Made by a program: the position numbers and the translations under genes
DNA from: a virus
DNA: 42,352 nt
Direction: 5' to 3' (one strand)
Virus record (IMG/VR): IMGVR_UViG_3300030116_002717
Coordinates: 1,773-44,124 of that record
The notes under the pieces: generated by a model
The model's database searches: none
What the model was told of the DNA's origin: nothing
What the model saw: only the letters and a program-made list of their open reading frames with translations
Shown: positions 9,696 through 42,051 of the stretch, one piece after another
Position numbering within the stretch: the stretch's first letter is position 1
Layout of the letters: the number at the start of each line of letters is the position of its first letter

Positions 9696-9897
9696 GATCA
9701 CTGTAGGTAAAGATTATAAAAATGACGCTATGCACTATTCTGTTGGACAGGAAGTGTATGGCGGTCATACTATATGTGATATATTAGAAGAAACTGATAA
9801 GTACTCTATATATATTAGAAAAGACAAAACTGTTATTCCTTGGAAAGACTTTAATAAGAATATGGCTATATCTGTAGAATATAACTTAGAATACTGA
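9676..9897 (+). CDS. Small conserved-type phage protein, 73 aa
   Basis: It starts MSHLIRKITVGKDYKNDAMH. The pattern is KNDAMHYSVGQEVYGGHTI, then YSIYIRKDKTVIPWKDFNKN, then an IxVEYNLEY end, and suggests a small SH3-like or beta-barrel fold. I recall the same pattern in marine Bacteroidota phage structural clusters but know no function. It overlaps the coiled-coil gene by 20 bases and the next gene by one (TGATG). Confidence 0.65.
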   Translation: MSHLIRKITVGKDYKNDAMHYSVGQEVYGGHTICDILEETDKYSIYIRKDKTVIPWKDFNKNMAISVEYNLEY

Positions 9898-10487
9898 TGC
9901 AAGCGCTTTACAACTTTGTTGTAGAGCCTATAGGTGAAAGATACAACAATAGCACTAAAGTAGGTGACAAAGAGTTAATACTTAACACTGATGTATACAA
10001 CCACTATCACGTCAATAGATTAGCTAAAGTTGTATCTATACCAAAGTTAGGTGATACTGAAATACAAGTTGGTGATACTGTTATAGTTCACTTCAATGTA
10101 TTTAGACGTTGGCATGATGTAAAAGGTAGAGAGCGCAATAGTAAATCATATTACGAAGAAAACAAATACTTCGTAAATGATGATCAGATATTTTTGTACA
10201 AGCGTGACAATGATTGGATGTGTCCACAAGGTTATTGTTTTGTGCAACCTATTAAGGACAATAGCAAACTAAGTGTTGATACTGAAAAACCTTTAGTTGG
10301 CATTGTTAAACATACTGATGGCAGAGCAGAGCTAAACTCTCTTGTAGGTTTTAGACCTAATATAGAGTGTGAGTTCGTTATTGATGGTAAGCGTTTGTAT
10401 CGTATACCATCACAATTTATTACAATTAAATATGAATATCAAGGAGACGAAGAAGAGTATAATCCAAGCTGGGCAGATAGCTGTTAA
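9897..10487 (+). CDS. Protein with two GroES-like barrel halves (tentative), 196 aa
   Basis: Both halves resemble the Cpn10 strand order. In the first, ALYNFVVEPIGER is followed by a loop, then RLAKVVSIP and IQVGDTVIVHFNVFRRW, similar to the GEVLAVG and VGDIVIF strands of GroES. In the second, GYCFVQPIKD is followed by LVGIVKHTDG, NSLVGFRPNIECEFVIDGKR and a closing RIPSQFITIKYEY. No GGxxL mobile loop is clear, so a direct GroEL lid function is doubtful. It could be a co-chaperonin-fold structural protein upstream of the terminase genes. The fold call is an inference by eye. Confidence 0.55.
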   Translation: MQALYNFVVEPIGERYNNSTKVGDKELILNTDVYNHYHVNRLAKVVSIPKLGDTEIQVGDTVIVHFNVFRRWHDVKGRERNSKSYYEENKYFVNDDQIFLYKRDNDWMCPQGYCFVQPIKDNSKLSVDTEKPLVGIVKHTDGRAELNSLVGFRPNIECEFVIDGKRLYRIPSQFITIKYEYQGDEEEYNPSWADSC

Positions 10488-10710
10488 TGAGCTTATCAAA
10501 GTAGCAGAAGAAAAAATCATCACTAACACTGAAGATGATGTATCTGCTGATAGGCTTAAAAACGCTGCTGCTACAAAGAAGCTTGCGATTTTTGACGCTT
10601 TCGAGATATTAGCTAGAATCCAAGAAGAACAAAACTTACTAGATGGTAAGTCTCCAGAAGAAAAGAAAGAGCGTGTCTTCAAAGGTTTTGCTGAAGGTAG
10701 ATCTAAATAA
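10432..10710 (+). CDS. Possible terminase small subunit, 92 aa
   Basis: I chose the ATG at 10432 (MNIKETKKSIIQAGQIAVNE). A longer frame from 10369 would overlap the previous gene more deeply and add a non-conserved leader. The protein is almost entirely helical and charged (ELIKVAEEKIITNT, DRLKNAAATKKLAIFDAFEI, EERVFKGFAEG-like end). It directly precedes TerL, sharing TAATG. Small all-helical proteins in this place are often small terminase subunits, but no helix-turn-helix is clear. The first 56 bases overlap the 196-aa gene. Confidence 0.55.
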   Translation: MNIKETKKSIIQAGQIAVNELIKVAEEKIITNTEDDVSADRLKNAAATKKLAIFDAFEILARIQEEQNLLDGKSPEEKKERVFKGFAEGRSK

Positions 10711-12929
10711 TGTACGAGCAGAGTTTAGTAAAGGTTGTAGAACCAATTAAGAAAACAACTATCACGAGACTTAATCGTGGTAAAAAATGGAAATACGGTT
10801 ATGATAAAGACCATGATATCGTCGTTATATCAAAGACTGGGCAAATCGGAGAAATACTCGAAATCCAAGGCCTGCAAATCGCATTGCCGCGTGTGCCCAC
10901 CTCTAATGTGTTTAAACACCAGAAAGACAAATGGGTAAAGACTGAATATCCAAAGGAGCTTAACCGTATAAAAAATATATTCGACTGGAGAGATTATCCA
11001 GACGAACAAAAAGAAAAGTGGTACGACTATATTGACGAAGAGTTCAAACGTAGAGACGAGGGCTTTTGGTTTACAAATAAAGGCGTACCGACATACATAA
11101 CAGGTACACATTACATGTACCTGCAATGGAGCAAGATTGACGTTGGAGCTCCAGACTTTAGAGAGGCGAACAGACTATTCTTTATATTTTGGGAAGCCTG
11201 TAAAGCTGATAAGAGATGCTATGGGATGTGCTACCTTAAAAACCGTCGTTCAGGTTTCTCGTTTATGTCATCAGCTGAAACAGTTAACTTAGCCACTATA
11301 TCGAGTGATAGTAGATATGGTATACTCTCTAAGTCTGGTGCCGATGCAAAGAAGATGTTTACCGATAAGGTTGTGCCTATATCTTTAAATTATCCTTTTT
11401 TCTTCAAGCCAATACAAGACGGTATGGATCGTCCAAAGTCTGAACTTGCGTATAGAGTTCCGGCTAGTAAGTTTACTCGTAAGAAAATACAAACTAACGA
11501 ACAGCTTGAAGAAATAGTAGGTCTTGATACTACGATCGACTGGAAAAACACTGGTGATAATAGCTATGACGGTGAAAAGCTAAACTTGCTAGTACATGAT
11601 GAGAGTGGTAAGTGGGAAAGGCCTGATAACATATTAAACAACTGGCGAGTTACTAAAACCTGTTTAAGGTTAGGTAGTAGAATCGTTGGTAAGTGCATGA
11701 TGGGTAGTACCAGCAACGCGCTAGACAAAGGTGGTGATAACTTTAAAAAACTATACAATGATTCTGACGTCACACGACGAAATCGTAATGGACAAACGAA
11801 GTCTGGCTTATATTCTCTCTTTATCCCAATGGAATGGAACTATGAAGGATTTATTGACGAATACGGACTTCCAGTCTTTGATAGTAGAAGTGATGATGTG
11901 CGACGTGGACCGGACGGTGAACTAATAGACGTAGGTGTTATTGATCATTGGGAAAATGAAGCAGAAGGTTTAAAAGATGATCAAGACGCATTAAACGAGT
12001 TTTACAGACAGTTTCCACGTACTGAAGAGCACGCGTTTAGAGACGAGACTAAAAATAGTATATTTAACTTAATTAAAATATACGAGCAAATAGATTTTAA
12101 CGAAGCTAGCAGACATAGCGCTCACGTTACTACTGGTAGCTTTGGTTGGGTTAATGGTGTTCAAGATACTCAAGTTGTATTTCACCCAGATCCAGGAGGT
12201 AGATTTAAAGTTAGCTGGGTGCCACCTGCTAGCTTGCAAAATAAACAAATAATAAAAAATGGCGTTAAGTTTCCAGGCAACAGCCATGTTGGAGCATTTG
12301 GATGTGATAGTTACGACATTAGTGGTACTGTTGACGGTCGCGGCTCGAAAGGCGCTTTGCACGGATTAACAAAATTTTCTATGGAAGATGCGCCTTCAAG
12401 CACGTTTTTCTTAGAATATGTAGCAAGACCACAAACCGCAGAAATGTTTTTTGAAGATGTATTAATGGCGTTAGTGTTCTACGGCATGCCGTTATTAGCA
12501 GAGAACAATAAACCAAGATTACTCTATTATCTAAGACGTAGAGGTTATAGAGGGTATAGTATGAATAGACCAGACAAGTCTTGGAAGAAGCTATCGGCGG
12601 CTGAAAAAGAAGTTGGTGGTATACCAAACTCAAGCGAAGACATTAAGCAAGCTCACGCTGCTGCTATTGAAATGTATATACAAGAACACGTGGGTAGTCT
12701 TGGTGACGGTGAGTTTGGCACAATGTATTTTAACGATACGCTACTTGATTGGTCTAAGTTTGATATAAATAAAAGAACTAAGTTCGATGCGTCTATAAGT
12801 TCTGGCTTAGCGATTATGGCCTGCAATAGACATCTATACGCACCTAATCCTAAAAAAGAAAAAACAAAGTTGAATTTAAGTATAGCAAAATATAACAACA
12901 ATGGGTATAATTCCCAGATAATTAAATAA
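10710..12929 (+). CDS. terL: Terminase large subunit
   Basis: A 739-residue packaging motor. The ATPase domain shows a Walker A-like loop LKNRRSGFS (residues 176-184) and Walker B LNLLVHDE (291-298, D297/E298). The nuclease domain starts near GAFGCDSYDISG, where D533 would be the first RNase H-fold acidic residue. Upstream, VPTYITGTHYMYLQW and PDFREANRLFFIFW match TerL proteins of marine Bacteroidota podoviruses and crAss-like phages. The Walker A is non-canonical, lacking G-K-S/T, which is tolerated in many TerLs. It is followed two bases later by the portal gene. It acts at the portal vertex to cut and pump DNA. Confidence 0.92.
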   Translation: MYEQSLVKVVEPIKKTTITRLNRGKKWKYGYDKDHDIVVISKTGQIGEILEIQGLQIALPRVPTSNVFKHQKDKWVKTEYPKELNRIKNIFDWRDYPDEQKEKWYDYIDEEFKRRDEGFWFTNKGVPTYITGTHYMYLQWSKIDVGAPDFREANRLFFIFWEACKADKRCYGMCYLKNRRSGFSFMSSAETVNLATISSDSRYGILSKSGADAKKMFTDKVVPISLNYPFFFKPIQDGMDRPKSELAYRVPASKFTRKKIQTNEQLEEIVGLDTTIDWKNTGDNSYDGEKLNLLVHDESGKWERPDNILNNWRVTKTCLRLGSRIVGKCMMGSTSNALDKGGDNFKKLYNDSDVTRRNRNGQTKSGLYSLFIPMEWNYEGFIDEYGLPVFDSRSDDVRRGPDGELIDVGVIDHWENEAEGLKDDQDALNEFYRQFPRTEEHAFRDETKNSIFNLIKIYEQIDFNEASRHSAHVTTGSFGWVNGVQDTQVVFHPDPGGRFKVSWVPPASLQNKQIIKNGVKFPGNSHVGAFGCDSYDISGTVDGRGSKGALHGLTKFSMEDAPSSTFFLEYVARPQTAEMFFEDVLMALVFYGMPLLAENNKPRLLYYLRRRGYRGYSMNRPDKSWKKLSAAEKEVGGIPNSSEDIKQAHAAAIEMYIQEHVGSLGDGEFGTMYFNDTLLDWSKFDINKRTKFDASISSGLAIMACNRHLYAPNPKKEKTKLNLSIAKYNNNGYNSQIIK

Positions 12930-26700: not shown

Positions 26701-27429
26701 GCTCAGCTTGAAAATACTAGTGGATTATTTGTTGGCATGTTAATGTCTGGTAAAGGTGTTATTGACGGTAGTATTATATCTTCTATAAGTGGCAATATAA
26801 TTACATTAACTTCAGGTAACGGTACGTCTACTTGTTTCACTGATCCGCATATATCAGGAACACCTACTGTTAGCTTTACGTTTACAGTACCTAGAAACAA
26901 CTTTTACAATACTCAATATACTTCAGATGTAACGTTAGTATTTAACGATATGCCAGAAGTAGTAAAAAGCTTTACAGCTATAAACTACGAAGGTACAAAC
27001 GCTAGAGTTGATGAGTGGGACTTTCAGTCAGCTCAACTTTTAAACAATAATTACTCTTCAACAACTAATGGAGCTGCTAACGGTTTGGAAGCTACAAGTA
27101 ACATAAGTGACAACGAGTATTATAATATAGCTGAAAACAAAAGAGGTTGGTACGTTGACAGCTTTGTAACTAATCTACAAGAGTGTGATAACATATTTTT
27201 TGTAAACAAAGAAGATAAGTACTTTGGATATCCAGTTGGTACAAGCACTATCTTATCTAACTTAGATGAAAAAGAGTTTTCTGTACAAGGATTAGCTCAA
27301 GCCACAGGAATAACACACGCTGATACTACGTTTACATTACCGCTTACAATTACAGTTCAAAACAATATAAGTACTACATACGTCGGAGACGATGGCGAAG
27401 GTAGTATTTGGGATTCAACAGCAGATTAA
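20770..27429 (+). CDS. Tail stabilisation/hub (muzzle-like) protein, 2219 aa
   Basis: It starts MAELKRNFSQAKMNKDLDER, followed by LVPQGQYREATNVQVATSDA and GALQTLLGNEK. This N-terminus is characteristic of tail-stabilisation or muzzle proteins of crAss-like and related podoviruses, though at 2219 residues this one is very long. The body is beta-rich. A later block (NQFIIADKITKEINPTHGSI, EDKILRAVTNRDALYN, ISKTPYRIYFTDAVRGEVLS) looks like a beta-propeller-type repeat. Near residues 1971-2042 and 137-217 it carries a VGM...VSFTF module that recurs in the next protein. It forms the tip of a short tail and probably contacts the envelope. It ends one base before the fibre-like gene. Confidence 0.75.
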   Translation: MAELKRNFSQAKMNKDLDERLVPQGQYREATNVQVATSDASDVGALQTLLGNEKHNAMASIATGVYNIPDTATVVGAVAAANIDKVYYLISAGDRNDNNNLLDTQKDYILEYDTIYKTIKYVFVDIFSVKTTVQATVGSSNTFFIDLGAGGGSVNTTGIRVGMSIISDAQNYGQISEVTVSAINYVDNKWQITVDNPNATGVSFTAGDDVSFKSKRVLNYSKNRIITGINILDDFLFWTDNFSEPKKINIKRCIKGTGGTTALNTVVTDTFIGDTDNFQTRLVINATDIATDLNVATNMAGTQPVFMEEDHVTVIRKAPTQPLELEMSRTLFARLDANGNSHAQGELLNFNFFATNTSQSIEPGTILTLQNEDGEGFVNPVDFRVGDIITFTPEGGAVTGITSEGYTVRGEVVTSSATSPNNLATTGIQIQILSLALSGVPQVPTNWIVEIEEPEPLFQFKFPRFSYRYKYQDGEYSAFAPFTQVAFLPDFFSYDPIKGYNFGMINQIRGLKVKGYYSQENCMPQDVVEIDILYKETNDPTVYTVKTLRPSDGSPVWPLPADVITGSRGVFEITTPVVHAVVDSLQLLRTSDAVPRKALAQEVTANRIVYGNYVQNYDILGDPSPTISVVSEDINDKYAKPSMKSMRTYQVGVVFSDEYGRETPVLTSKNSSVTIPKSSSTKQNRLAAQFDFNNSNIHIPDWAKYYSFYIKETSEEYYTMVMDRWYNAADGNIWLSFASSERNKVDEETFITLKNKHGINAAVTEPVRYKILAISNEAPDYIKTERKSLGITDSFATTEFSNPLGNGESMLNADHVVIDQNVITAVYGVEASERLDKIDTLKLKFFGGEGDVSGEYEVTKVSTVDAGIRFNLKENLTEDTDFITFAADGALNAGLGIKIELVEEEVENKPEFDGRFFVKIYKDSQLVDNVILTTGGADLDTIDNQWALGYLNNNGYVNAGTLKALYAGDYSATQYGHPCPTNPKYTRHSKVISSLLFGNKNHRHPTEHTYTGLTEYYWDNSAAFTSTAELNALSPLQGWGSNSPAGSGGANSGSTSFLSRFAQDPVRTLNGNHAYSSVVQERWWTWAAEERLFFIDACTAYHWTGRPSGVGGSAPFINAPQNQYDYFSYSGLLFNPNPLDAPGNEQATNTDLGSTIGFYPLVSFSSIAGNQEGYGYGDMRFGLEYYTASYNFIGTMFGPDDDDWIGASVVGELIGPNQYQGTNYNSGLGTANSLANIGFGVSAGDLEQTLGRLIGGVRYSGNQRQMRGQPSRGIWDNPYQEDSSIMDISWTGMGYGLQQYQGQTYNATGEPEAYTNYPGGASPTFEDVFQNAGGVPCRLQDLSYDSIGVESPNSYQNAWQFIQDLTAIGTKFRFERDPDETVYTVLGFANVDNYGYKNDSTVDWTGEQPDQDHISAETYSGWDGKGPWENTGENAIGTNEREAEGCWGIRNYRTRWDSYQYYGSNMRQRWSIVVTPKIGSGPSGYNPTTGTDPSVEGCDFGGENHVRALPHDLTKDHDKILILTSSNVEDDSLEGLATSEPGIWETEPKQDVDLDIYYQASPLIPLNLNKETNEELIPLGSSFKLFNGTGSADEPQGQSQTNHTVSGWDERTFTYLNSDDTTGVPTGAFLYGNLTSAFTAPLAIKFTKYDYYDIELLPENNTNGQFTPGTSIQLHGPDEFFDQFQPRFQRHILNWHNCYAFGNGVESDRIRDDFNAPQFDNGVKASTVTAEPRIREERREYGMIYSGIYNSINGLNNTNQFIIADKITKEINPTHGSIQGLESRDTRLIMFCEDKILRAVTNRDALYNADGKPQLVASNAVIGDVTPYEGNYGVATNPESISKTPYRIYFTDAVRGEVLSLSSEGVRSISNLGMRDYFADLFRDGVVKSIGSYDARKKEYNLTICKKPLSNYTQIASDKTTISFSELGNGWSSFKSYTPDYGLSLNNDYFTFYNGHIWKHHSETSYTYSGFKTGDLTAQLENTSGLFVGMLMSGKGVIDGSIISSISGNIITLTSGNGTSTCFTDPHISGTPTVSFTFTVPRNNFYNTQYTSDVTLVFNDMPEVVKSFTAINYEGTNARVDEWDFQSAQLLNNNYSSTTNGAANGLEATSNISDNEYYNIAENKRGWYVDSFVTNLQECDNIFFVNKEDKYFGYPVGTSTILSNLDEKEFSVQGLAQATGITHADTTFTLPLTITVQNNISTTYVGDDGEGSIWDSTAD

Positions 27430-30184: not shown

Positions 30185-31012
30185 ATGGGTTTATTTGCAT
30201 TAAAAGTGGGTTTGTCAATATTTAGCGCTATTAGCTCTAACAAAAGAGCTAAAAAAGCAGCTAAGCAAGCGGCTGAGCAACAAGAGCGTTTGCAAGATTT
30301 GCAAGACGAGTATGCTAACTTAGATACAAGTAATCCGTATCTTAATATAGAAAACGTATATGAAGACTTAACTATTAACCAACAGCAGGCTAATTTTTTA
30401 AGACAAACCCAGGCTCAAGCTAGGGCTAATATATTAGACAGACTTCGACAATCAGCAGGTCCGTCAGGTATAGCTTCACTAGCTCAAACGTTAGCTAACC
30501 AAGGAAGCATCGATGCTCAGAAAGCATCTGTTAGTATTGCGCAGCAAGAGCGTCAAAACGAATTACTACGAGTTAAAGAGCAGCAAAGAATACAAGGACT
30601 TGAGCGTGAAGGTGAACTCATTAGTAGGCAAGCTGAGTTTGATATACTAGAAGGACAAATGGGGCTAACAGCTGATCAGCTAGATGTAGCAAGAGATCTT
30701 GAGGCTAGAAACAGACAACAAACTAGAGCTGCTATAGGTCAAGGTATTACAGCTATAGGAGAAGGAATATCTACAGGAGCGTTTGACACAGGATTTAAAG
30801 AAAGCGGCTTTTCTGGTACGTATGCTCAGTACTTAGGTCAAGAGGGAATCGAGGCTCAAGGATTTGGATCTGGTTTAACTAATCAGTTTGGTGTTGGAGG
30901 TGGTGGTTTCTCAGGTGTCTACGATTGGACTGGAGGTAGCGGTAGTACTGGTGGAGCTCCACAAATAGGAGAAACCGCGGTATGGGATGGAACTCAATGG
31001 GTAAAACAATAA
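30185..31012 (+). CDS. Internal virion (ejection) protein, gp14-like, 275 aa
   Basis: The hydrophobic start MGLFALKVGLSIFSAISSNK is followed by a basic helix (KRAKKAAKQAAEQQERLQDL). A long Gln/Ala coiled coil follows (LRQTQAQARANILDRLRQSA, GPSGIASLAQTLANQGSIDA, QQERQNELLRVKEQQRIQGL), and the C-terminus is Gly-rich. This arrangement matches small internal virion proteins that insert into the envelope during DNA ejection, comparable to T7 gp14. It opens the cargo block of three genes that are nearly contiguous (six bases, then a one-base overlap). The role is inferred from architecture and order. Confidence 0.7.
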   Translation: MGLFALKVGLSIFSAISSNKRAKKAAKQAAEQQERLQDLQDEYANLDTSNPYLNIENVYEDLTINQQQANFLRQTQAQARANILDRLRQSAGPSGIASLAQTLANQGSIDAQKASVSIAQQERQNELLRVKEQQRIQGLEREGELISRQAEFDILEGQMGLTADQLDVARDLEARNRQQTRAAIGQGITAIGEGISTGAFDTGFKESGFSGTYAQYLGQEGIEAQGFGSGLTNQFGVGGGGFSGVYDWTGGSGSTGGAPQIGETAVWDGTQWVKQ

Positions 31013-31018
31013 AGTAAA

Positions 31019-32308
31019 ATGGCAGAACAACCAAAAACTAGAACATTACAGTTTGGGCTTAAGGACGATACTCTTGACAGAATAAAATCCTCTCAAAAAA
31101 CAGGTCTGCAAAGGCTTGAAGAAGGAGACAAGACTTTACTAGATACTCTTTCAGAAGGTATAACTACTATTGAAACATCTCAAGACCAACTGAAACAAGA
31201 TATATATGATCAGCAAGTACAGCAACAAAATTTTGACAGGTTAGTAGCGGAAGCTCAAGATAGAGGTGAGATTTTCTCTGCAAACACTAAAGACCAAATG
31301 ACGGCTATATACGAAGAAGCTAATAAAGTTTTTCGAACTGCTGACAAGCAGACTCAAGCCGCTATGATAGAGTCTATGAAAGCTCATAACACTTCAGGCA
31401 CTGCCATGGCTGAGGTGTTAGATATAGCTATACAGGCTCACGATGCTAATGCTATAAGTCCTTCTTTTCTAGCTAGTCCTGACGGCGTAGCTTTAGGAAA
31501 GATTATATCTCAACAAGATACTGAAATAAAACTTAACGAAGCTAATCAGTGGGTATTTGTTGTTGATGGTAAAACGTATACTCGTAAAGATATTGAAGGT
31601 ATGGTAGAAAAAAGTGTTGCCGTAGACTTTAAACCTAACATAACTGCGTTTGACAAAAAATGGAACTATGACACAGCGTTATCTCAAAACTCACAACTGT
31701 TTAATAAAAATAATATGGTAAGAGCTTTTGAAGATAAAGATGTGTTTGGTAATTACACTTTAAAAGACGAGATCAATAGAGTGTTAACAGCTAGAGACTC
31801 TAGTTTAGAAATACCTTTACCTGGTAACGCAGATGAAAAGTACAAAAAAGCTGACACTGATGGCGATGGTAGATTAAGTAGAAAAGAAAGACTACAGAAC
31901 TTACCTGACGAATCAGATGATGTAACGTTGAACGCTTTGATGACAGAGTTGTTTAAAAAAGACGACGAAGGTTTTTATGTTTACAATGACGAGCTAGGTG
32001 ATTTAGCAGGTATGTACTTGACTGATCTTCAAGTACAGAACGGCGCTGGAGCTGTTGAAATAGGTAGTGGTAGTGACGACGACGATGAAAAAGGTTTTAA
32101 GGGAGAAGTTTACGACATAACTACAACTGAAGGTAATCAAAAGGCCAACGCGATTTTGCCTGCACTATTTGCGAAAATGAAGAAAAATAACAGTGGTGCC
32201 ACTATGTTATACGATAGTTACGAAGATTTGTTAGCAGAAGCTGAAGACGACTTAAAAAATGTTGTCAAGTTGTTAGGTTTATCAGATAGAATTAAAATTA
32301 AAGACTAA
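31019..32308 (+). CDS. Cargo/ejection protein with EF-hand-like loop, 429 aa
   Basis: The N-terminal half is helical and charged (DRIKSSQKTGLQRLEEGDKT, LKQDIYDQQVQQQNFDRLVA). Residues 279-290 read DTDGDGRLSRKE, a perfect 12-residue EF-hand Ca2+ loop with Asp at 1, 3 and 5, Gly at 6, a hydrophobic at 8 and Glu at 12. A Ca-binding (dockerin or EF-hand) element inside a virion cargo protein could respond to seawater versus cytoplasmic calcium during entry. An acidic linker (GSGSDDDDEKG) and a helical C-terminus follow. No enzymatic motif is seen. It overlaps the giant gene by one base. Confidence 0.7.
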   Translation: MAEQPKTRTLQFGLKDDTLDRIKSSQKTGLQRLEEGDKTLLDTLSEGITTIETSQDQLKQDIYDQQVQQQNFDRLVAEAQDRGEIFSANTKDQMTAIYEEANKVFRTADKQTQAAMIESMKAHNTSGTAMAEVLDIAIQAHDANAISPSFLASPDGVALGKIISQQDTEIKLNEANQWVFVVDGKTYTRKDIEGMVEKSVAVDFKPNITAFDKKWNYDTALSQNSQLFNKNNMVRAFEDKDVFGNYTLKDEINRVLTARDSSLEIPLPGNADEKYKKADTDGDGRLSRKERLQNLPDESDDVTLNALMTELFKKDDEGFYVYNDELGDLAGMYLTDLQVQNGAGAVEIGSGSDDDDEKGFKGEVYDITTTEGNQKANAILPALFAKMKKNNSGATMLYDSYEDLLAEAEDDLKNVVKLLGLSDRIKIKD

Positions 32309-35300
32309 TGCCAGATCCAACGTTAAGCGAAATACTTGAAGGCCTAGAAGAACAAGGAGCTAGTGTAGAGTTGATGCAAAAAGTAGCTAAAAGGTATCAC
32401 GAGTCAAAAAAAGCAAGCGACCCACAAGACGACGCGCAAACTGGGTCAGATCAGCAAGCGTCAGATGGGGATACGAGTCAAGACGATGGTTTATTAAGGT
32501 CAACGTACAATCCTAGATCTGCAGACGACGAAGATCTATTTGCGGATATAACTCCTATTACGGGTGAAGGCGCTGAGTACGACGAGGCTGACGAAGCTAT
32601 ATTTCGTATTTTAAATAAAATAGATCCTAGTGTAGACGCTAAAAAACAACACGAAGAGGCTATAAATCAAGCTATACAAGAAGATATAAACAAACCTACT
32701 GAACACCAATTAAGAAGAGCGCAAGCTAGATTTGATAATCAAGGCTTAATTACAGGTGGTTTGTTCAATATGAACAAGAAGTACGCTACTCTTCAAGACG
32801 CTATCGAAGAAGTACAAATGGAAGATAGCGGAGGTCCTCAAGTAGATCCTGATAGATCGTTTAAAAACACTGATAAAGGTCACGTAACTAGAAGCGAGTT
32901 AGAAAGCGTTGGGGTTGACGAGACAAGGTATGTCAAGTTGTTAACTGAGATTTATGGTGACGATTACGAGATTACAGAATCTAACGTGATGGGTAGTTTT
33001 AACGCTATAAGGATAAAGCATAAAGAATCTGGAGCTGAAAAAACATTTGACATATCTTCTCCCAGGATGCCTGGTGATTTAGGTGGAGGCATTAGAGTGT
33101 ATCGCGGAACTTCAACAGGTGATTTAATTGGAGCAAACATAGAAAAAATAACTAGATACATTGATGGTTTTGAAAAAAATAGTGAGCAATTAACTAGAAT
33201 AAGTAACACCTCTGGCGCTGTTAATAAAGAGGTCGTATTTAAGCCAGCTCAAAATTATGGCGAAGATTTTTATAGCAACATATTTCATGACAATACAACT
33301 TCAGACTTTGGTCAGTTTAGAAGTTTTTCTGGAGGCAAAGTAGCTAACCTAGATGAAAAAGAAATAATTGCGCACGACATATTTGACGCTGGTGTTAGAG
33401 CAATACAAGGATCTAGTAGGTTTGGAGATGTTTATGAGATAGGTGATATTGAATTAATGACAGACGAAGCTTGGAGAAATTACTCTAGAGCTATGAAAAG
33501 AGGTGAAGTAGCGGGTATAACTAGAGCTACATTTGAAGATATTTTAGACTTAAATAAATCTTTACAAGAAGCGAACAACCAACTAGCAATACGTAACAGA
33601 GAAAACATGGCTCGTATGGATGTTTCTGAAATATCTCCAGAAATATTATTAGCAGATTTTAACGAGCGTACAGCTGAATACGATGCGCCAAGACGAAACA
33701 AAGCAAATGTTATAAAAAACACTATTAAGCCTCTTGAAGACGAGTTAAATATAATTGATAGCCAACTAGAGCAAGGCCTTACTACTGAAAACAAAGAGCT
33801 AACTGATGCGGCAAGAGAAAAGCTAGAAGCAAGAAAGCAAGAGATTCTAGCTGAAATGGAGATTGCTAGACAAGGTATAGAAGACGTAGCAGAAGATTAC
33901 TATTGGAGAGACGCTAGTGTTCAAGACGTAACTTCTAGATTTTTGGACTTAGGCTTTAGTCAAGCTAGAGCGGAGCGTATGGCTGAAACAGTAAAGCATA
34001 CGCAAGAAGAACTTGAAAATGAGATAGCGCTTATAAAGCAGTTTAATCCTGGCATGACTGATAGGGAGGCTATGGAAAGGTTTTATCAAACAAGAGTCCA
34101 AAATGCTATGGACATCGTTCAAGATGGTAAAAACCAAACGCTTGAATTAGACTTATCAGATCTTGATAGAACTACTCGGTATAGAGTTTCGCTTGGTCAG
34201 TATTTTGTTTATAAGCAAGAGTACGAGCAGTATAAAGAAAGTGGACAAGTACCTGGTACTGAAAACTACAAAGCCCCTAAAGAAACAGACGATACAGATG
34301 GTCCTACAATTCAAGGTACAAGCTTTGAAACGTGGCGTAACGGTCTACCTGATTGGATTAGATTTGTTGACGGTGAAATAAAAATGCCTCCAGCTGGTTC
34401 AAGGCTAGGCCAATCACTATATGACCGTGAAGATTCTGTAAAAATTACTTTTGCTGACTTATTTAACGCAGGTGTAAACGCAGATGATTTAGACGAAGAT
34501 GGCGTTGTAACTCAGCGTGGTACATCTGGAACTCTGCCTAGTGGGAAAACTGCTATAAGCAACTACGCTAACTACGAGGAAGCTAACGACATGAACGATG
34601 CTACCTTAAGGACTATGTTCGAGTTTGTCTATTTAGACCGTGATCCTAAAAATTTACGAGCTACTACAGCTGTGACTGGAGCAGCAGGAGACGTTGAAGT
34701 CACTGCTAAAAACTTCACAGGCGCTGCCGTTAAAACAGCCATGACTCAATGGTTTGGAATGAGTGATCGTGAGGCTAAAGAAGCTTTATCATCTGGCGGT
34801 ATGTTAACAGACAGAGACGCTGCTGATGATATAGAGTTGGTTTTAGCAAGGTACAACACTATGTCTGAAGACGTAGCTACTGGCAAGGTAAAACCTATAG
34901 AGCTTAGTAAAGAGCAAAAGACAGCGGTAGGCAGAAGTTTTACAGATAACGTTGCTGAAGGAGTGGGTCAATTTGTACCTACTTTAATAGAGTTTGCAGC
35001 TATAAATGCTGTTACTGGAGGCGCTATGAATATAACTGGGCTAAGTAGGTACTTACAGACAGCAGGTCGTCTTCAAAAGTTTTTAGTAGGTGCTAGTTTA
35101 GAAGAAGCTAAAACTCAATATCTAGGGTTTAAGCCTGGATCTGGTGTAGCTTTCTATACGTTTGGTGCTGCAACACCTTGGTTTAAACCTTCTAGTTTAT
35201 TTAGTAAATCTTCGTTTGCTAAAGGATTAGATCCGCTATGGAATAAAACTATTAAAGCTGGTATTGGTGGTGGTGCTGCTGCTGAGTTTGCTACTATAGT

Positions 35301-38300
35301 AGAGCTAGGTTATGAAGCGGCCGCAGGTGATGCTAACTTTAAAAACGAAATAGACGAGCTGTATGGAGACTTAGACGAAGTTCTTCAAAGATATCTAACT
35401 AACGCAGTAGTATTTGGTTTAGCTGGCCAGCATGGTAAAGGTAGAGTTACAGCTAGAGATTTTGTAATAACAAGCCAGCAGAAGTTTAAGCTTACGCAGA
35501 ATTTAGGCAAGAAAATTGAAAGACTAGGCCTTACTAAAGAAGGTAATAACGAGCTTAATAGGATAGAAAAAGAAAGCAAGCAGTTAGAAAAAGATTACAA
35601 AAACGGCGAGATTAGTGAGAAAGATTACAAAAAGAAAGTAGCCGAAAATGCTGCTGCAAAACAATCAGTTTTTGAAAATTCTAAAAGAGAGTGGGACGAT
35701 TTAACTAAGAGTGAACAGCGTAAGGTAGAGACTTTACAAAAGAATTTATTAGAAGTACAACAGCTATTTCAGTTTCAGGTAAATAGTCAAAAACTTAATC
35801 CTTATACTACAAATAATAAAGGGGAAAGAGTAGAAAACAAAGACTTTGAAAAAAATTACCAGAGTTTAGTTATAGATCCTGTCAATGCTATATTTGCTAA
35901 AGCCAATAAGGCTCATAAACCTATAACAGTTAAGTTTATAACTCCATCTGAAGCTAAGGCTGTGTTTGAAAATGAAGGAGCTGTAGCTGAATATAAAATA
36001 GAAACTAACGAAATACTATTTAATAAAGAGAATTTTACTGTAGGTATATCAAACCACGAGCTTGTACACGCAGCGCTTAGACAAGTGCTCAATAAACATG
36101 GTAAGCGTATGGAGGCTAGCTTTACTAAAAGATTAGATAAGATTTTTGAAGAAGCATATGGCTCAAAGCTAGAAGATATTATAGGTAGAGCTACGGTTGT
36201 CACGCCTGAAGGTATAGTTAAAAGAGGTGCCGAAGCTATTAACGAAGCCTATAAAGACAAGACAGAGTCTGTTAAAAGCGAAGAGTTCTTAGCTAATTTA
36301 GCAGAATTTATAACTAATCCAGAAATATATTACTCTACAGTAAACACTACGTTTATGAAGAACGCTAAGCAAGAAATAAAAAGCTTCTTAGAAGAGAACG
36401 TTCCTGGTATGGGTAAGATGTTTAAGCCTAAGTCTGCCCACGAGTTTGTAGACTTTTTAGGTAGGCTAGGGTCTGATGCTAGAAAAGGTAGAAACATATC
36501 ACACAAGGTTTTACAGTTGAGTAAAATCAAAGATATGGACTTTATGTATGTTGAGACTAGAGAAATAGCTGAAAAAGCGCTAGCTTCAAGAGACTTAGCT
36601 GCTGAAAATGCCGAGCTTAAATCTAAAAATCTTGAGTTATTTGAGCAGAAGAAAGCTGGTAAAATAACAGACCAACAATACAAAGAAGCTATTAAGCCAA
36701 ATGTTGAGAAGATAAAGAAGAACAAGGCTAACATAGAAATATCTGATCGTAACGTAGAGTTGTTTAAAGAGTACGAAGCTATAGAGCGTAGTGTTGAATC
36801 TGAAAACGTGACTGAGCAAGACAGACTTAGGTTGTCTAGAAAGTTTGATCAGATTAGAGAGAACAACTCTGGTATACTAGAAAACTATATTGGTACTAGT
36901 GAAAAGCCTGGGGCTTTTAAAGAAGTACCAGGTTCTAAAGTTACTCGTGAAATGTTTAAGAACTATGTGTACAATACAGAGTTTTTAAAGCTATTTAACA
37001 CGTATAAGAAGAGGCCAGCAGCATTAAAAGACGTAGACTTTGGAGCTTACTTACAGCTTCCTAATACTTTAAGGTTAAGAACAGGTAATATATTAAGAGC
37101 ACTTGGTCAAGAAGGTGTTTCTGACGTTTCGTTAGATGCTTTGAAAGAGTCAGGTAGAGAGTTACCTGAGCCAACAGTAGAACCAACTGAAGTTAAAGAA
37201 ACTGCTACTTTAGAAACAGATGGCTTAAAACTTATATACGAACTACCTGTTGAGCAGTCTACTATAGACGCTATATCAAACAAAGTTGAGACTGAGATTA
37301 TATCTAATATTGAAAACCTTGATTATAAAACTCTTGAAGACTTAGTTCCGTCTGCTACTAAAGCTATGTTCGGTAAATCTACTCAAGCTAAAGCTAACTT
37401 TATAGCTAATAACTGGAAAACTATATACAGTCTTTTACCTAAAAATCTTACTGAAACTACGGGCGTAGCCACAGGGGTTGAAAACAGTCTAATGACTAGG
37501 AAAAAACCTGGCGTAGGTATGCAAAACGTTTTTTATCAAAACACAGGTAAGACTGTTAAGTTTGCAGAAACTGGAGCAAGAACCGGTACGGAGATAAAAG
37601 AAGTACGTAAGCTTAATAAGTCAGAGTTTTTAGCAGAGCTTGGTATTAAAGATAATAGAACTACGCAAGAATTAAACTCAGGTGAAGGTAACGTAGATAT
37701 ATCAGGCATGAATGTTAAGGTTGATAGAAGCATAACTACGTCAGTGCTTCCAGCTCTAATAAATCAGACAGGTAAAGCCATAACAAATCAAGTTGTTAGA
37801 ACCAAGCTAAAAGATCTTGCTAAAACTAGACCTGATTTACTAGAAGTTCTTGAAACTAAAAACTTAGATACCGTTATAAACGATATAGCATCTGGTAAGT
37901 CTGATGCTTTAGCTAGTTTAGATTTAGCTAAGTCTTATAAAAAGGCTGGTCTTGAGTATAATGAACAGCTTGCTTTCCAAAGACTTGAGTTTTTTATGCG
38001 TGATATGGAAGGATTTAAAAAGTCTAATCCTAAAGAGTACGAAATAATAAAGGATGTTATTGAAGATCACGCTACATTAGAAGCTGAAATAGGTAAGCAA
38101 AACGAAATAGCTTTTACTAGAGAAACTAAAAAACTTCCTTATGATTTTTCACAAAACGGAACTTGGCTTATATCGCAAGCTAAGTTTAAACTCGCTATAG
38201 ATTTATTAAATAAATTTGAAGCTGAGTCTTTTGAAATAGCTGATTTAATACCTTTAGAAGTTGGCGCAGTACCTGGCAACATGAAAATGATGCTTGACAT

Positions 38301-41300
38301 GTTTACTGGTCACTACGGCGCTATGAAAGGTATACGGCGTATGGATCTTGTTGATAGCTCTTTTAAAGAAGGCTTACGTAAAAGATTAACTAGTGGAAAA
38401 AAGTCAAAGCTATCACCTGAGCTGCAAGAGCGTTGGAAAAATTTTGACTGGAACAAGCTTAAAAGTGCTTACGCTTCTTCTTACAAAACTGGTTATAACA
38501 AAATACGTACAACTGAAGGGCTTGAAGCGCAAAAAGAAATAGCTAGAAAAACATTTAAATCAGAAGCAGGTGAACTTCAGCTTGAGCTTTACGATCTTTG
38601 GAACAGTACTTTGTCTGAATGGGTGCACAGCGAAAAGTTTAATAGCCCTAGGTGGAACGAAAAAATGGACTATGTTGCTAGAATAAAGAAGCATAATTCA
38701 ATTATTGGAACTACAGGTGAAAGAGTTTTAGCGCCTGTGGGCTGGGTGTATTTACCAGGTAGAATTGTTGAAGGCACTATTAAGTACGAGCATTTAAAAT
38801 CTAGCAGCGAACAGTCGCACGAATCTTTGGCTCTCATAGCTGAAAATAGGTGGAGCACTGAAGGTAGAAAGTCTTTACAAAACTACGAAGGCATATACGG
38901 ATTTTTGCACGATTTTAATATTATAGATAAAGCTACTGGCAAAGTTAACAGCTCTGGTATATTCAGACTAGCAGAAACTTTAGAGTTAGCTAAAAATATA
39001 TACAGCACTAAAAGCAACTTTGAAAAAAGTCTTTACCAAGAAATCGTAGAGCAAGTTGGCGAAAAGAAAATAAAAGAGCTTTTATCTAATGAAGTTAAGT
39101 TAGAAAAGCAACACAACGATGCTATACCTAAAGCGTTTGCTAGTAAAGGTTTATCAAAAACAGAAAAGCTAGATTTATTAAATGATATACAAAAAGCTGT
39201 TACAAATAGTAGAAAAATAAAGCCTGAGCGTAAAGGTATGAGCACTTGGGACTTTGACGATACGTTAGCTAAAACTAAATCTGACGTATTATTTACAGCT
39301 CCTGATGGTACTAAGGGTAAGCTTAATGCTACTGAGTTTGCTAAGCGTGGAGCTGAGCTGTTAGACCAAGGATATAAGTTTGACTTCTCTGAGTTTAATA
39401 AAGTAACAGACGGCAAGCCTGGCCCTTTCTTAGAAAAAGCTTTAGAGCGAGCTAAGAAGTTTGGTACTAAAGATACCTATGTACTTACAGCTAGAGCGCC
39501 TGAGTCTGCTCCTGCTATTAAAGAGTTTTTAGATGCACAAGGTCTTAAACTACCTATTGAAAACATAGTTGGATTAGGAAACAGTACTGGTGCTGCTAAA
39601 GCTAGATGGATGCTTAAGAAGTTTGCTGAAGGATATAACGATATGTATTTTGCAGACGACGCTATGGCAAATGTTAAAGCAGTTAAGTTTGTTCTTGATA
39701 AGCTTGATATTAAGTCAGATGTACAGCAAGCTAGATCTTTAGCATCTCTTAACTTAAGCGAAAGCTTAAACAAAATGATTGAGCGTAAGACTGGCATTGG
39801 CGCTGAAAAAACATTTAGCGGCGCTAAAGGTAAAATGCTAGGTAAACGTAGAAAACCTCAGTCTATAGTAGTGCCTGGAGCTCAAGACTTTATGGGTCTT
39901 ATGCAAAACTTTATGGGTAAAGGAAGACAAGGTAATTTAGATAGGAAGTTTTTTGAAGATAATTTAGTCAAGCCTTTTGCAAGAGCTACTAAAGAAATGA
40001 ATGAGTCAAGACAGAGAGCATCTGAAGATCTTAAGAAGCTATACAAAGATATACCTAGTGTAAAGAAAAAACTAAACAAAAACTTACCAGGTTCTGCGTT
40101 TACTTTTGATCAAGCTATTAGATCTTATTTATGGCAAAAAGCAGGGTATGAAATACCTGAGTTGTCAAAAAATGATTTGAAAGAAATGACTGACGCTGTT
40201 AAAAACGATAGACAGTTATTAATATTTGCTGACGGATTAAGTGGCATAGCTAAAGGTCAATGGACAAAACCTACTGGTAATTGGGTGGCTGAAACTATTG
40301 TGTCAGACTTGTTTAGATTAAACAGTAAAGAACGTAGATCAGAGTATCTACAAGAGTGGCAAGAAAATGTTGACACTATATTTTCACCTGAAAATTTAAA
40401 TAAAATAGAAGCAACTCAAGGTAGTAAGTTTAGAGAAGCTCTGGAAGATAATATATATAGAATGAAGACTGGTTCTAATAGACCTACAGGTGCTAATAGA
40501 TTAACAAATCAGTTTAACAACTGGATCAATGGATCTGTTGGAGCTACAATGTTCTTGAATATGAGATCAGCTATGCTTCAGACTATATCTGCTACTAACT
40601 ATATTAACTGGTCTTTTAATAATCCTATTAAAGCAGCAGCGGCTTTTGGTAATCAAAAACAATACTGGTCTGACTTTACTATGCTATGGAACTCTGCTAT
40701 GCTTAAGCAAAGACGAGCTGGTTTAGAATACAACGTACAAGAAGCTGAGCTTGCTGCGGCCATGGCGGGTCAAAAAAATAAAGCTAAAGCAGCTATGGCT
40801 TGGTTGATTAAAAAAGGTTTTACACCTACTCAAGTTTGTGATAGCTTTGCTATATGTGCTGGTGGTGCTACTTATTATAGAAATAAATTTAAAGCTCTTG
40901 TTAAAAGAGGTATGTCACCTGCTGAAGCTAAAGAAAAAGCTTTTTTAGACTTTCAAGAGTTAACTGAAACTAATCAGCAGTCATCAAGAGCAGACCTTAT
41001 ATCACAGCAGCAAGCTTCAGGTTTAGGTAGAACTATATTAGCTTGGTCTAATACACCTATGCAGTACATGCGTATACAGGAAAAAGCAGCTAGAGATATT
41101 ATAAACGGCAGAGGTGATCTTAAAACTAATATGTCTAAGATAGCTTATTATGGAGTTGTTCAAAGCGTAATATTCTCGGCTTTACAAAACGCGCTATTTA
41201 GCTACGGTTTAGACGAGGAAGACGATCTTGATGATGACGATTTAAATAAGTCTATCGACAGAACTATAAACACTGTTATTGATTCTCAGCTTAGAGGATT

Positions 41301-42051
41301 AGGTGTAATTGGTGCAGCAACATCTGCTATACGTAACACGGTTCTTGAGTTTGAAAAACAAGAAGAAAAAGCTTACGATGATAATTATTTAAGCTCTCCA
41401 GATCACAGTAGAACAGTACTTCAGTTAACTAGTTTTTCGCCTGTTATTAGTTCTAAGCTACGTAAGTTATATTCAGCAGGTAGTGAGTGGAATTATAACA
41501 GGGCCGCTATACATGAAATGGGTTTAGATATAGATAACCCTGCTATAAAAGCTGGGGCTAATGTTATCGAGGCTACAACTAACTTGCCTGTTGCTAGATT
41601 CGTACAGAAAGTAGATAACTTGCAAGGCGCGTTAGATGACAGCAACCAAACGTGGCAGCGTATTTCTATGCTAATGGGTTATCCTAAGTGGCAGCTAGGT
41701 ATTGTAGATACAGAGGTAGAGGAAGCGGCCGCTAGAGGTAAAGAAAAAATAAAAGAAATACAAAAAGAAGCAGAGCGTCAAGCTAAAGAAGCTAAAGAAG
41801 AAACATATATACAAGATCAAGAAAAAGAAATAAAAGACGGTAAAGAAACCACTTGCGCCGGCGCTAAGTCAAACGGTGAAAGATGTACAAACAAACCTTT
41901 ACCTGGAGAAAAGTTCTGCACTATACACCAAAAAGTAGAGCAAAGAGAAGACGGTAAAGAAACTCAATGCACTTATATAAAAAGCGGCGGTAAAGGCCGT
42001 TGTAAAATGATGACAAAAAATAAATCAGGAAGATGCTACTATCACGATTAA
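32308..42051 (+). CDS. Giant polyvalent virion (ejection) protein, 3247 aa
   Basis: The last complete and largest gene. From the N-terminus: an acidic disordered start; coiled-coil around residues 470-620; a hydrophobic, Gly/Ala-rich stretch at ~884-1007 that may enter membranes. A zincin motif NHELVHA follows (H1250, E1251, H1254). A HAD phosphatase domain has motif I DFDDTLA (D2315/D2317), motif II YVLTARAP, a Lys in GAAKARWM, and motif IV FADDAM (D2450/D2451). A large-polyvalent-protein-like C-terminal region ends in a hydrophobic segment near 2940-2966. Two CxnCxnCxxH knuckles lie at 3183-3207 and 3221-3246. Such proteins are packaged and injected at infection. Domain calls are by motif; their substrates are unknown. 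Confidence 0.85.
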   Translation: MPDPTLSEILEGLEEQGASVELMQKVAKRYHESKKASDPQDDAQTGSDQQASDGDTSQDDGLLRSTYNPRSADDEDLFADITPITGEGAEYDEADEAIFRILNKIDPSVDAKKQHEEAINQAIQEDINKPTEHQLRRAQARFDNQGLITGGLFNMNKKYATLQDAIEEVQMEDSGGPQVDPDRSFKNTDKGHVTRSELESVGVDETRYVKLLTEIYGDDYEITESNVMGSFNAIRIKHKESGAEKTFDISSPRMPGDLGGGIRVYRGTSTGDLIGANIEKITRYIDGFEKNSEQLTRISNTSGAVNKEVVFKPAQNYGEDFYSNIFHDNTTSDFGQFRSFSGGKVANLDEKEIIAHDIFDAGVRAIQGSSRFGDVYEIGDIELMTDEAWRNYSRAMKRGEVAGITRATFEDILDLNKSLQEANNQLAIRNRENMARMDVSEISPEILLADFNERTAEYDAPRRNKANVIKNTIKPLEDELNIIDSQLEQGLTTENKELTDAAREKLEARKQEILAEMEIARQGIEDVAEDYYWRDASVQDVTSRFLDLGFSQARAERMAETVKHTQEELENEIALIKQFNPGMTDREAMERFYQTRVQNAMDIVQDGKNQTLELDLSDLDRTTRYRVSLGQYFVYKQEYEQYKESGQVPGTENYKAPKETDDTDGPTIQGTSFETWRNGLPDWIRFVDGEIKMPPAGSRLGQSLYDREDSVKITFADLFNAGVNADDLDEDGVVTQRGTSGTLPSGKTAISNYANYEEANDMNDATLRTMFEFVYLDRDPKNLRATTAVTGAAGDVEVTAKNFTGAAVKTAMTQWFGMSDREAKEALSSGGMLTDRDAADDIELVLARYNTMSEDVATGKVKPIELSKEQKTAVGRSFTDNVAEGVGQFVPTLIEFAAINAVTGGAMNITGLSRYLQTAGRLQKFLVGASLEEAKTQYLGFKPGSGVAFYTFGAATPWFKPSSLFSKSSFAKGLDPLWNKTIKAGIGGGAAAEFATIVELGYEAAAGDANFKNEIDELYGDLDEVLQRYLTNAVVFGLAGQHGKGRVTARDFVITSQQKFKLTQNLGKKIERLGLTKEGNNELNRIEKESKQLEKDYKNGEISEKDYKKKVAENAAAKQSVFENSKREWDDLTKSEQRKVETLQKNLLEVQQLFQFQVNSQKLNPYTTNNKGERVENKDFEKNYQSLVIDPVNAIFAKANKAHKPITVKFITPSEAKAVFENEGAVAEYKIETNEILFNKENFTVGISNHELVHAALRQVLNKHGKRMEASFTKRLDKIFEEAYGSKLEDIIGRATVVTPEGIVKRGAEAINEAYKDKTESVKSEEFLANLAEFITNPEIYYSTVNTTFMKNAKQEIKSFLEENVPGMGKMFKPKSAHEFVDFLGRLGSDARKGRNISHKVLQLSKIKDMDFMYVETREIAEKALASRDLAAENAELKSKNLELFEQKKAGKITDQQYKEAIKPNVEKIKKNKANIEISDRNVELFKEYEAIERSVESENVTEQDRLRLSRKFDQIRENNSGILENYIGTSEKPGAFKEVPGSKVTREMFKNYVYNTEFLKLFNTYKKRPAALKDVDFGAYLQLPNTLRLRTGNILRALGQEGVSDVSLDALKESGRELPEPTVEPTEVKETATLETDGLKLIYELPVEQSTIDAISNKVETEIISNIENLDYKTLEDLVPSATKAMFGKSTQAKANFIANNWKTIYSLLPKNLTETTGVATGVENSLMTRKKPGVGMQNVFYQNTGKTVKFAETGARTGTEIKEVRKLNKSEFLAELGIKDNRTTQELNSGEGNVDISGMNVKVDRSITTSVLPALINQTGKAITNQVVRTKLKDLAKTRPDLLEVLETKNLDTVINDIASGKSDALASLDLAKSYKKAGLEYNEQLAFQRLEFFMRDMEGFKKSNPKEYEIIKDVIEDHATLEAEIGKQNEIAFTRETKKLPYDFSQNGTWLISQAKFKLAIDLLNKFEAESFEIADLIPLEVGAVPGNMKMMLDMFTGHYGAMKGIRRMDLVDSSFKEGLRKRLTSGKKSKLSPELQERWKNFDWNKLKSAYASSYKTGYNKIRTTEGLEAQKEIARKTFKSEAGELQLELYDLWNSTLSEWVHSEKFNSPRWNEKMDYVARIKKHNSIIGTTGERVLAPVGWVYLPGRIVEGTIKYEHLKSSSEQSHESLALIAENRWSTEGRKSLQNYEGIYGFLHDFNIIDKATGKVNSSGIFRLAETLELAKNIYSTKSNFEKSLYQEIVEQVGEKKIKELLSNEVKLEKQHNDAIPKAFASKGLSKTEKLDLLNDIQKAVTNSRKIKPERKGMSTWDFDDTLAKTKSDVLFTAPDGTKGKLNATEFAKRGAELLDQGYKFDFSEFNKVTDGKPGPFLEKALERAKKFGTKDTYVLTARAPESAPAIKEFLDAQGLKLPIENIVGLGNSTGAAKARWMLKKFAEGYNDMYFADDAMANVKAVKFVLDKLDIKSDVQQARSLASLNLSESLNKMIERKTGIGAEKTFSGAKGKMLGKRRKPQSIVVPGAQDFMGLMQNFMGKGRQGNLDRKFFEDNLVKPFARATKEMNESRQRASEDLKKLYKDIPSVKKKLNKNLPGSAFTFDQAIRSYLWQKAGYEIPELSKNDLKEMTDAVKNDRQLLIFADGLSGIAKGQWTKPTGNWVAETIVSDLFRLNSKERRSEYLQEWQENVDTIFSPENLNKIEATQGSKFREALEDNIYRMKTGSNRPTGANRLTNQFNNWINGSVGATMFLNMRSAMLQTISATNYINWSFNNPIKAAAAFGNQKQYWSDFTMLWNSAMLKQRRAGLEYNVQEAELAAAMAGQKNKAKAAMAWLIKKGFTPTQVCDSFAICAGGATYYRNKFKALVKRGMSPAEAKEKAFLDFQELTETNQQSSRADLISQQQASGLGRTILAWSNTPMQYMRIQEKAARDIINGRGDLKTNMSKIAYYGVVQSVIFSALQNALFSYGLDEEDDLDDDDLNKSIDRTINTVIDSQLRGLGVIGAATSAIRNTVLEFEKQEEKAYDDNYLSSPDHSRTVLQLTSFSPVISSKLRKLYSAGSEWNYNRAAIHEMGLDIDNPAIKAGANVIEATTNLPVARFVQKVDNLQGALDDSNQTWQRISMLMGYPKWQLGIVDTEVEEAAARGKEKIKEIQKEAERQAKEAKEETYIQDQEKEIKDGKETTCAGAKSNGERCTNKPLPGEKFCTIHQKVEQREDGKETQCTYIKSGGKGRCKMMTKNKSGRCYYHD

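Follow-up and report, generated by a model that had tools for sequence, protein, structure and literature searches.

A giant phage protein with an invariant gluzincin site and a Pnkp-like HAD domain, a candidate ejected virion cargo

Large proteins ejected ahead of the DNA have been described as cargo of phage particles (PMC10172136, PMC8954989). For the polyvalent proteins of phages, processing by zincin domains was proposed by Iyer et al. (2017, PMC5512222). No evidence of degradation was found for the HExxH-bearing virion RNA polymerase of N4 (PMC12633501), a result that counts against self-processing as the general case.

The stretch of ocean phage DNA analysed in this study (the window, 42,352 nucleotides) contains an uninterrupted ATG-started open reading frame of 3247 aa at exactly 32308-42051 on the + strand; the ORF and its motifs, reported in an earlier note made from the sequence, are real. 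It is the last gene of the operon for the phage particle. That note had placed the gene at the end of a chaperonin-bearing structural cluster, which was upheld, and the same position is repeated in relatives. Terminase and portal are encoded in the same cluster as the giant, as Iyer et al. (2017) ask of polyvalent proteins. The genes concerned are the following:

32308..42051, + strand: giant polyvalent ORF, in a slot shared with the giant genes of MW202828 and the elemo phages
31019..32308, + strand: protein of 429 aa encoded after the gp14-like gene and before the giant, a possible partner ejection protein
30185..31012, + strand: gp14-like small virion protein with a weak match to T7_gp14 (E 0.011), kept in relatives as a neighbour upstream of the giant
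10710..12929, + strand: terminase large subunit, from which the phage was placed by sequence comparison

The terminase is 46-64% identical to those of the elemo phages and MW202828, and the terminase, portal, structural proteins, muzzle and GroEL/GroES chaperonins were all matched as in elemoviruses and crAss-like phages. The best reading is a podophage lineage of roughly 60-70 kb, kin to the Flavobacterium elemoviruses and more distantly crAss-like. The elemo counterpart of the giant is annotated as 'structural protein', and the order of gp14-like gene and giant is conserved in relatives. The giant is very probably an ejected virion protein.

Searching with tblastn both halves of the giant against 50,697 phage records gave zero matches at 1e-3, and a scan of IMG/VR with the zincin region of the window as single query sequence did not find relatives. 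Relatives were recovered via the C-terminal module: the samples comprised 155 related loci, 117 non-redundant relatives and 105 relatives with complete C-termini. One scan was seeded partly on HAD peptides and another on the C-terminal module; the former inflates the share of HAD-bearing members, while the zincin count is free of this bias. Three loci (L120, L092 and L100) carry the giant in pieces, and gene fission was rejected for them because the junctions, a repeated stretch or frameshifts within conserved sequence, look like assembly or indel errors. Over the 155 loci a common design is seen, with an exchangeable front, a zincin in the middle, a HAD domain and then a helical C-terminal module that the loci have in common at residues 2481-3120 of the giant. 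In the window these parts are located as follows (all on the + strand):

32308..35487, +: variable front, residues 1-1060, delimited by the search for relatives
34948..35328, +: most hydrophobic stretch, residues 881-1007 (weak, 19-residue mean up to 1.32)
35845..36627, +: gluzincin domain, residues 1180-1440, from alignment, model and fold matches
36055..36069, +: HELVH, residues 1250-1254, with H1250, E1251 and H1254 invariant
36283..36285, +: the invariant E1326, which presumably supplies the third zinc ligand from the second helix
36628..39177, +: variable linker region, residues 1441-2290, fold not assigned
39220..39747, +: HAD domain of the Pnkp 3'-phosphatase type, residues 2305-2480, from motifs, profile and fold matches
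39250..39264, +: HAD motif I, DFDDT, with D2315 and D2317; a nested kinase is inserted shortly after it in 25 relatives
39487..39495, +: HAD motif II, TAR, T2394-R2396, from the alignment
39598..39600, +: HAD motif III, K2431, from the alignment
39655..39660, +: HAD motif IV, D2450 D2451, from the alignment
39748..41817, +: constant all-helical C-terminal module, residues 2481-3170, from alignment and model, presumed to serve packaging/delivery
41854..41928, +: first C3H zinc knuckle, residues 3183-3207, a C-x(9-10)-C-x10-C-x2-H unit
41968..42045, +: second C3H zinc knuckle, residues 3221-3246, of the same pattern

The front of the giant is mosaic. In 20 related records with terminases 72-89% identical to that of the window, identity in the front of the giant can fall as low as that of shuffled sequences, and the front two-thirds are unrecognisably different between otherwise closely related phages. 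Residues 641-1060 have counterparts in a few to about 15 relatives, while for residues 1-400 a counterpart was found in no relative. Hydrophobic regions lie where the earlier note had placed them (with peaks that start at 881-894, at about 982 and at 2941-2950). Their description as membrane-like is weakly supported, since 19-residue Kyte-Doolittle means reach no more than 1.32 and the usual transmembrane threshold is about 1.6.

The motif NHELVHA, as noted earlier, is present with its first histidine at residue 1250. In 113 of the 117 non-redundant relatives a single HExxH precedes the C-terminal module, 1217 +/- 161 aa ahead of it, where 0.013 per protein would be expected, so the motif is not due to chance. 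The zincin is near-universal in the family, with some members lacking HExxH. Among 37 aligned zincins with a mean identity of 19%, H1250, E1251, H1254 and E1326 were the only invariant columns and, as judged from this alignment, are the active-site set of a gluzincin. In the AlphaFold model the domain consists of a small sheet, the HExxH helix and the Glu helix (local pLDDT about 65-96), so that gluzincin features are found in sequence as well as in predicted fold. The VIA matches covering the domain are known zincins, at a weak Z of about 5; globin and coiled-coil rows in the fold searches were taken as helical chance matches. With good confidence, the domain is predicted to be an active metallopeptidase. 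Self-processing, rather than cleavage of a host protein, is put at slightly below even odds.

The zincin could also open peptidoglycan peptides or an envelope protein at DNA entry, replacing the transglycosylase of T7 gp16 described in PMC8954989, with the HAD domain as a minor accessory. The giant's position appears to match that of T7-like ejection genes, and Glucosaminidase or GH108 domains occur in one or more relatives in the sampled part. The relatives bearing such cell-wall hydrolases nevertheless keep the zincin, given the HExxH count above. Moreover, the drift of the zincin body to so low an identity is unexpected with a constant cell-wall substrate, and no signal was obtained for any known peptidoglycan peptidase family. 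A role in envelope passage is improbable.

The HAD motifs, which the earlier note had placed from D2315 to D2450/D2451, are D2315/D2317/T2319, T2394 (with R2396), K2431 and D2450/D2451, and they are invariant in 42 aligned relatives. The profile match is phrog_415, polynucleotide kinase (9e-5), and the top four of about 1000 aligned chains in VIA were T4 Pnkp phosphatase, Pnkp1 and two further T4 Pnkp entries (Z 10.7-9.7). The next HAD family followed at Z 8.9, a modest margin with a 958-residue model, and sequence identity to T4 Pnkp is ~15%. Among solved HAD structures, the predicted fold thus appears nearest, by this modest margin, to the Pnkp phosphatases. These closest relatives have 3'-phosphate ends of DNA or RNA as substrates. 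The domain is likely, on sequence and model, to act on nucleic-acid ends. Healing of broken ends fits it better than the general dephosphorylation of nucleotides. The HAD domain is dispensable, as it is absent in ten sampled relatives; every HAD-less member of the tree, ten in all, was recovered by the scan that started from the C-terminal module. The zincin and HAD domains together constitute two unrelated enzyme domains in one chain, which bears out the polyvalent multi-enzyme protein proposed earlier. The same note had named non-conserved catalytic residues as refuting evidence; this comparison was made, and both active sites are invariant.

In 25 of the 117 relatives, a P-loop domain resembling polynucleotide kinase is nested within the HAD domain, and its P-loop, Asp and Arg residues are conserved where the kinase is present. 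A P-loop kinase and a HAD domain in one unit is the Pnkp arrangement. For a kinase nested inside a HAD domain, no precedent was found in the literature searched. The giant of the window has no P-loop polynucleotide kinase, and so is not itself a bifunctional Pnkp. In the PDB the nested kinase matches Pnkp kinases, zeta toxin and T4 PNK. A DNA-ligase-type gene, on which the PF09414 matches fall, is present in 18 of the 20 related records and was not found in the window's own fragmentary record. As DNA ligases are common in phages, this count is only compatible with end-healing. RNA_lig_T4_1 was uninformative because it matched nowhere, controls included.

In a rival reading directed at the host, the zincin may cut a host defence or transcription factor, with the front providing host-specific targeting, and the HAD or HAD-kinase would have a nucleotide, a nucleotide sugar or a phosphorylated signal as substrate instead of nucleic-acid ends. 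Quick drift round a fixed active site together with an exchangeable front resembles an arms race, and the nested kinase exceeds the cut-off of Zeta_toxin, zeta toxin being a nucleotide-sugar kinase; a close relative in BFVD is named UDP-N-acetylglucosamine kinase. The closest HAD structures and the profile match, however, point to Pnkp, as does the joining of kinase and HAD, and this explanation is considered unlikely. Far less probable still is a mainly structural giant, an internal virion scaffold or tape with enzyme-like domains as non-catalytic relics. The very large chain, its variable front and the members without HAD or HExxH would agree with it, but in the diverged zincins fixation is confined to the zinc-peptidase residues, among them the catalytic E1251; all HAD motifs are fixed, and so are the kinase residues wherever the kinase occurs.

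The C-terminal module resembles the C-termini of many polyvalent phage giants, including ART/MuF/LPD giants, while the giant of the window itself gave no Pfam LPD, ART or RNAP match. Foldseek of the C-terminal model against the PDB gave no significant match; because of this and because VIA covered only the HAD part, no new fold is claimed for the helical module. The terminal Cys/His repeats seen earlier are confirmed as two zinc-knuckle units. One or two of them occur in 37 of the 105 relatives with complete C-termini and in 0 of 117 shuffled proteins.

Taken as a whole, a polyvalent ejected cargo delivering a predicted metallopeptidase and an end-healing phosphatase is preferred, with a probability of about 0.6. 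The constant helical module would package and deliver the chain, which would thread through portal and tail into the cell before the DNA. There the gluzincin would cut, most likely its own chain or partner ejection proteins and otherwise a host protein. The HAD domain, as a Pnkp-type 3'-phosphatase, would heal broken ends of the incoming DNA (or RNA) for sealing by ligase, and in roughly one in five of the relatives sampled the nested 5'-kinase-like domain would complete the enzyme pair. More tentatively, a constant delivery module, an exchangeable front and a Pnkp-like kinase nested in a HAD 3'-phosphatase may form an unreported build, the kinase having been lost or never gained in the window's member. 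The genome would then arrive with a repair enzyme against nucleases leaving 3'-phosphate or 5'-OH ends, plus a freeing protease. The giant may also have the takeover or counter-defence role proposed by the earlier note. If the preferred reading holds, some marine podophages bring an end-repair enzyme with them into the cell, and mending nuclease damage as the DNA enters would be an early form of counter-defence that can be tested. For the study of giant ejected proteins the family amounts to a natural experiment: the delivery module and active sites are fixed, and the remainder is swapped between phages with terminases 72-89% identical to that of the window. The nesting gives a well-known kinase/phosphatase pair an unusual topology. 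With a zincin in nearly every member, the old proposal of polyvalent-protein processing can be put to the test.

Compared with known systems, the giant shares with the polyvalent proteins of PMC5512222 the joining of several unrelated enzyme domains in one very large phage chain, the zincin HExxH with downstream Glu and the C-terminal module. The term 'phosphatase' is absent from that paper, and neither a Pnkp-type HAD nor a nested kinase is met in its available part. T4 Pnkp and bacterial Pnkp1 share the HAD motifs and fold with the window and the P-loop kinase partner with the 25 kinase-bearing relatives, but there the kinase lies beside the HAD rather than nested in it, and the HAD is not embedded in a giant virion-type protein. 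With the C-terminal domain of the N4 virion RNA polymerase (PMC12633501) the giant has in common an HExxH domain ahead of a long helical part, in N4 within a giant ejected protein and here within a probable one. No RNA polymerase domain was recognised in it by Pfam or PHROG profiles, with fold models for a minor part of its front, and the two helical parts gave no structural match in searches using models larger than the module alone. T7 gp16 and the crAss001 cargo resemble it as large cargo, presumed to be ejected before the DNA, in what appears to be the slot after a gp14-like gene (PMC8954989, PMC10172136). A sequence relation to them was not found; the giant lacks a lytic transglycosylase (Pfam), a trait that is itself phage-specific, and the crAss001 cargo of comparable size is related to RNA polymerase. 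Although gp18 of the Flavobacterium elemo phage lacks both a HAD and any relative of the C-terminal module, it is likewise a giant last gene in the same slot, and its zincin matches the family profile at 1.6e-14.

The uninterrupted ORF at 32308-42051 encodes a protein of 3247 aa (the giant), in which the motifs named in the earlier note were found at the residues assigned to them. The window covers most of its IMG/VR record of 44,124 bases, which stops shortly after the giant gene. Since the terminase (phrog_6681), portal (phrog_6547), virion proteins, crAss-type muzzle protein, GroEL and GroES could all be matched, the phage is placed by sequence near the elemoviruses of Flavobacterium and MW202828 (46 and 64% terminase identity, respectively), the crAss-like phages being more distant. 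In both annotated relatives, the same final slot of the virion operon is taken by a gene for a giant protein (3694 and 3859 aa).

4137-5708, phage-encoded GroEL
9897-10487, GroES-like gene
20770-27429, crAss-type muzzle protein, 2219 aa (crAss_MUZ and crAss_MUZ_C)
30185-31012 (+), gp14-like gene
31019-32308 (+), gene of a 429-aa protein
32308-42051 (+), giant

The muzzle protein exceeds the Pfam model length of 1224 positions. The GroEL and GroES-like genes are widely separated within the cluster, and the phrog_13932 match of the latter covers the first 125 of 196 residues. The 429-aa protein shows a canonical-looking EF-hand loop (31841-31888, DTDGDGRLSRKE), with a Pfam EF-hand E of about 0.02, below cut-off.

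Two IMG/VR scans seeded with the C-terminal part of the giant yielded 155 loci, the window's own included, with 117 non-redundant giants carrying both the front end and the C-terminal module (about residues 2481-3120). The order muzzle, small gene, gp14-like gene, giant was repeated in relatives with enough upstream sequence. As the terminase of 20 large related records is 72-89% identical to that of the window, the related records (up to about 71 kb) look like a single phage lineage. In L120, L092 and L100 the giant is split, with a repeated stretch at the junction (L120) or frameshift-like junctions, probably through assembly or indel errors. Ten contigs encoding the module (L162-L171) lie within bacterial or archaeal metagenome-assembled genomes, several of them small and in unlikely hosts; these are probably mis-binned phage contigs.

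By iterative profile search, residues 2481-3120 were detected in nearly all relatives, residues 2291-2480 in 108 and the zincin in 97, while residues 1-400 matched in none. Compared with L003, the window giant shows 74-86% identity in 2481-3120 and 21-29% in 1-2290, the latter comparable to what a shuffled control gives (19-26%). The opposite pattern was seen with L059 (43-51% in 641-2290, 35-50% in the module). Because these patterns are opposite, and L003 is the sister of the window in the module tree while L059 lies far away, the chain is, on sequence comparison, a mosaic whose parts were exchanged close to the HAD boundary.

Exactly one HExxH precedes the module in 113 of the 117 giants (0.013 expected), 1217 +/- 161 aa upstream of it. 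Across 37 aligned zincin domains (mean identity 19%) the only invariant residues are H1250, E1251, H1254 and E1326. Modelled with AlphaFold (mean pLDDT 72), the domain comprises a small sheet and two helices, one bearing HExxH and the other the Glu; domain-covering VIA matches of the model are assorted known zincins at Z about 5, supportive of a zincin fold but not decisive, and Foldseek by itself gave no significant match. In the cultured elemo phage, the giant has the zincin (1.6e-14) and lacks HAD and module. HAD and module are also absent from the MW202828 giant (L082, 741-12320), in which HExxH occurs twice (residues 1615 and 2500) and the zincin-profile match is weak. For polyvalent zincins, processing of their own chain has been proposed, either inside the head or once injected (PMC5512222). 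The zincin of the giant may likewise process its own chain, or may act on a changing host target, both of which would fit because the catalytic residues are fixed while the rest of the domain drifts. Self-processing is opposed by N4 vRNAP, for which there is no evidence of degradation although it bears an HExxH domain (PMC12633501).

The HAD motifs do not vary across 42 relatives, and the window domain has a match at 9e-5 to the polynucleotide kinase family phrog_415. When about 1000 chains were aligned to the C-terminal model, the four highest scores went to T4 Pnkp phosphatase, Pnkp1 and two entries of T4 Pnkp (Z 10.7-9.7), ahead of the next family at Z 8.9. The putative HAD activity would most likely be removal of 3'-phosphates from nucleic-acid ends. 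Shortly past HAD motif I, 25 of 117 relatives carry an insert of about 200 residues, a P-loop kinase by AAA_33 (as low as 4e-16) and Zeta_toxin (above cut-off), in which the P-loop, Asp and Arg residues are invariant. Its PDB matches are a Pnkp kinase domain at 1e-4, zeta toxin at 7e-4, Pnkp1 at 8e-4 and T4 PNK at 1.6e-3. On starred branches of the module tree the kinase label changes at least five times and HAD absence at least four; both therefore come and go, as judged from this tree. An ATP-dependent DNA-ligase family protein is encoded in 18 of 20 related records, and none in the window's own, fragmentary record. A Glucosaminidase match (1.9e-11) in at least one relative's giant and a GH108 match (1.8e-4) in one, both in alignment A6, lie ahead of the HAD. 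Stand-alone hypothetical proteins 30-40% identical to the nested kinase occur in Pelagibacter, Methylophilales and a large Agrobacterium phage, including:

L172, 2453-3115, stand-alone nested-kinase-like protein of Pelagibacter phage HTVC008M

The module is all helix in the predicted model. Besides close uncultured relatives, it resembles many giant phage proteins, which align along most of the module at 10-15% identity and TM 0.4-0.5 and some of which carry ART, MuF or LPD annotations; we infer a shared delivery module. The terminal Cys/His repeats, proposed earlier as zinc knuckles, are real tandem C3H knuckles, optional among relatives. The hydrophobic stretches of the proposed membrane-like segments stay below transmembrane levels.

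In the open-access text searched, neither a Pnkp-type phosphatase in a polyvalent giant, nor a kinase nested inside a HAD, nor a constant back with an exchangeable front within a lineage of similar terminases was found. Zincin-bearing polyvalent giants are already known. In crAss001, T7/P22-like phages and N4, large, partly unfolded cargo proteins are ejected ahead of the DNA (PMC10172136, PMC8954989, PMC12633501), and by position and architecture the giant fits as a candidate protein of this kind.
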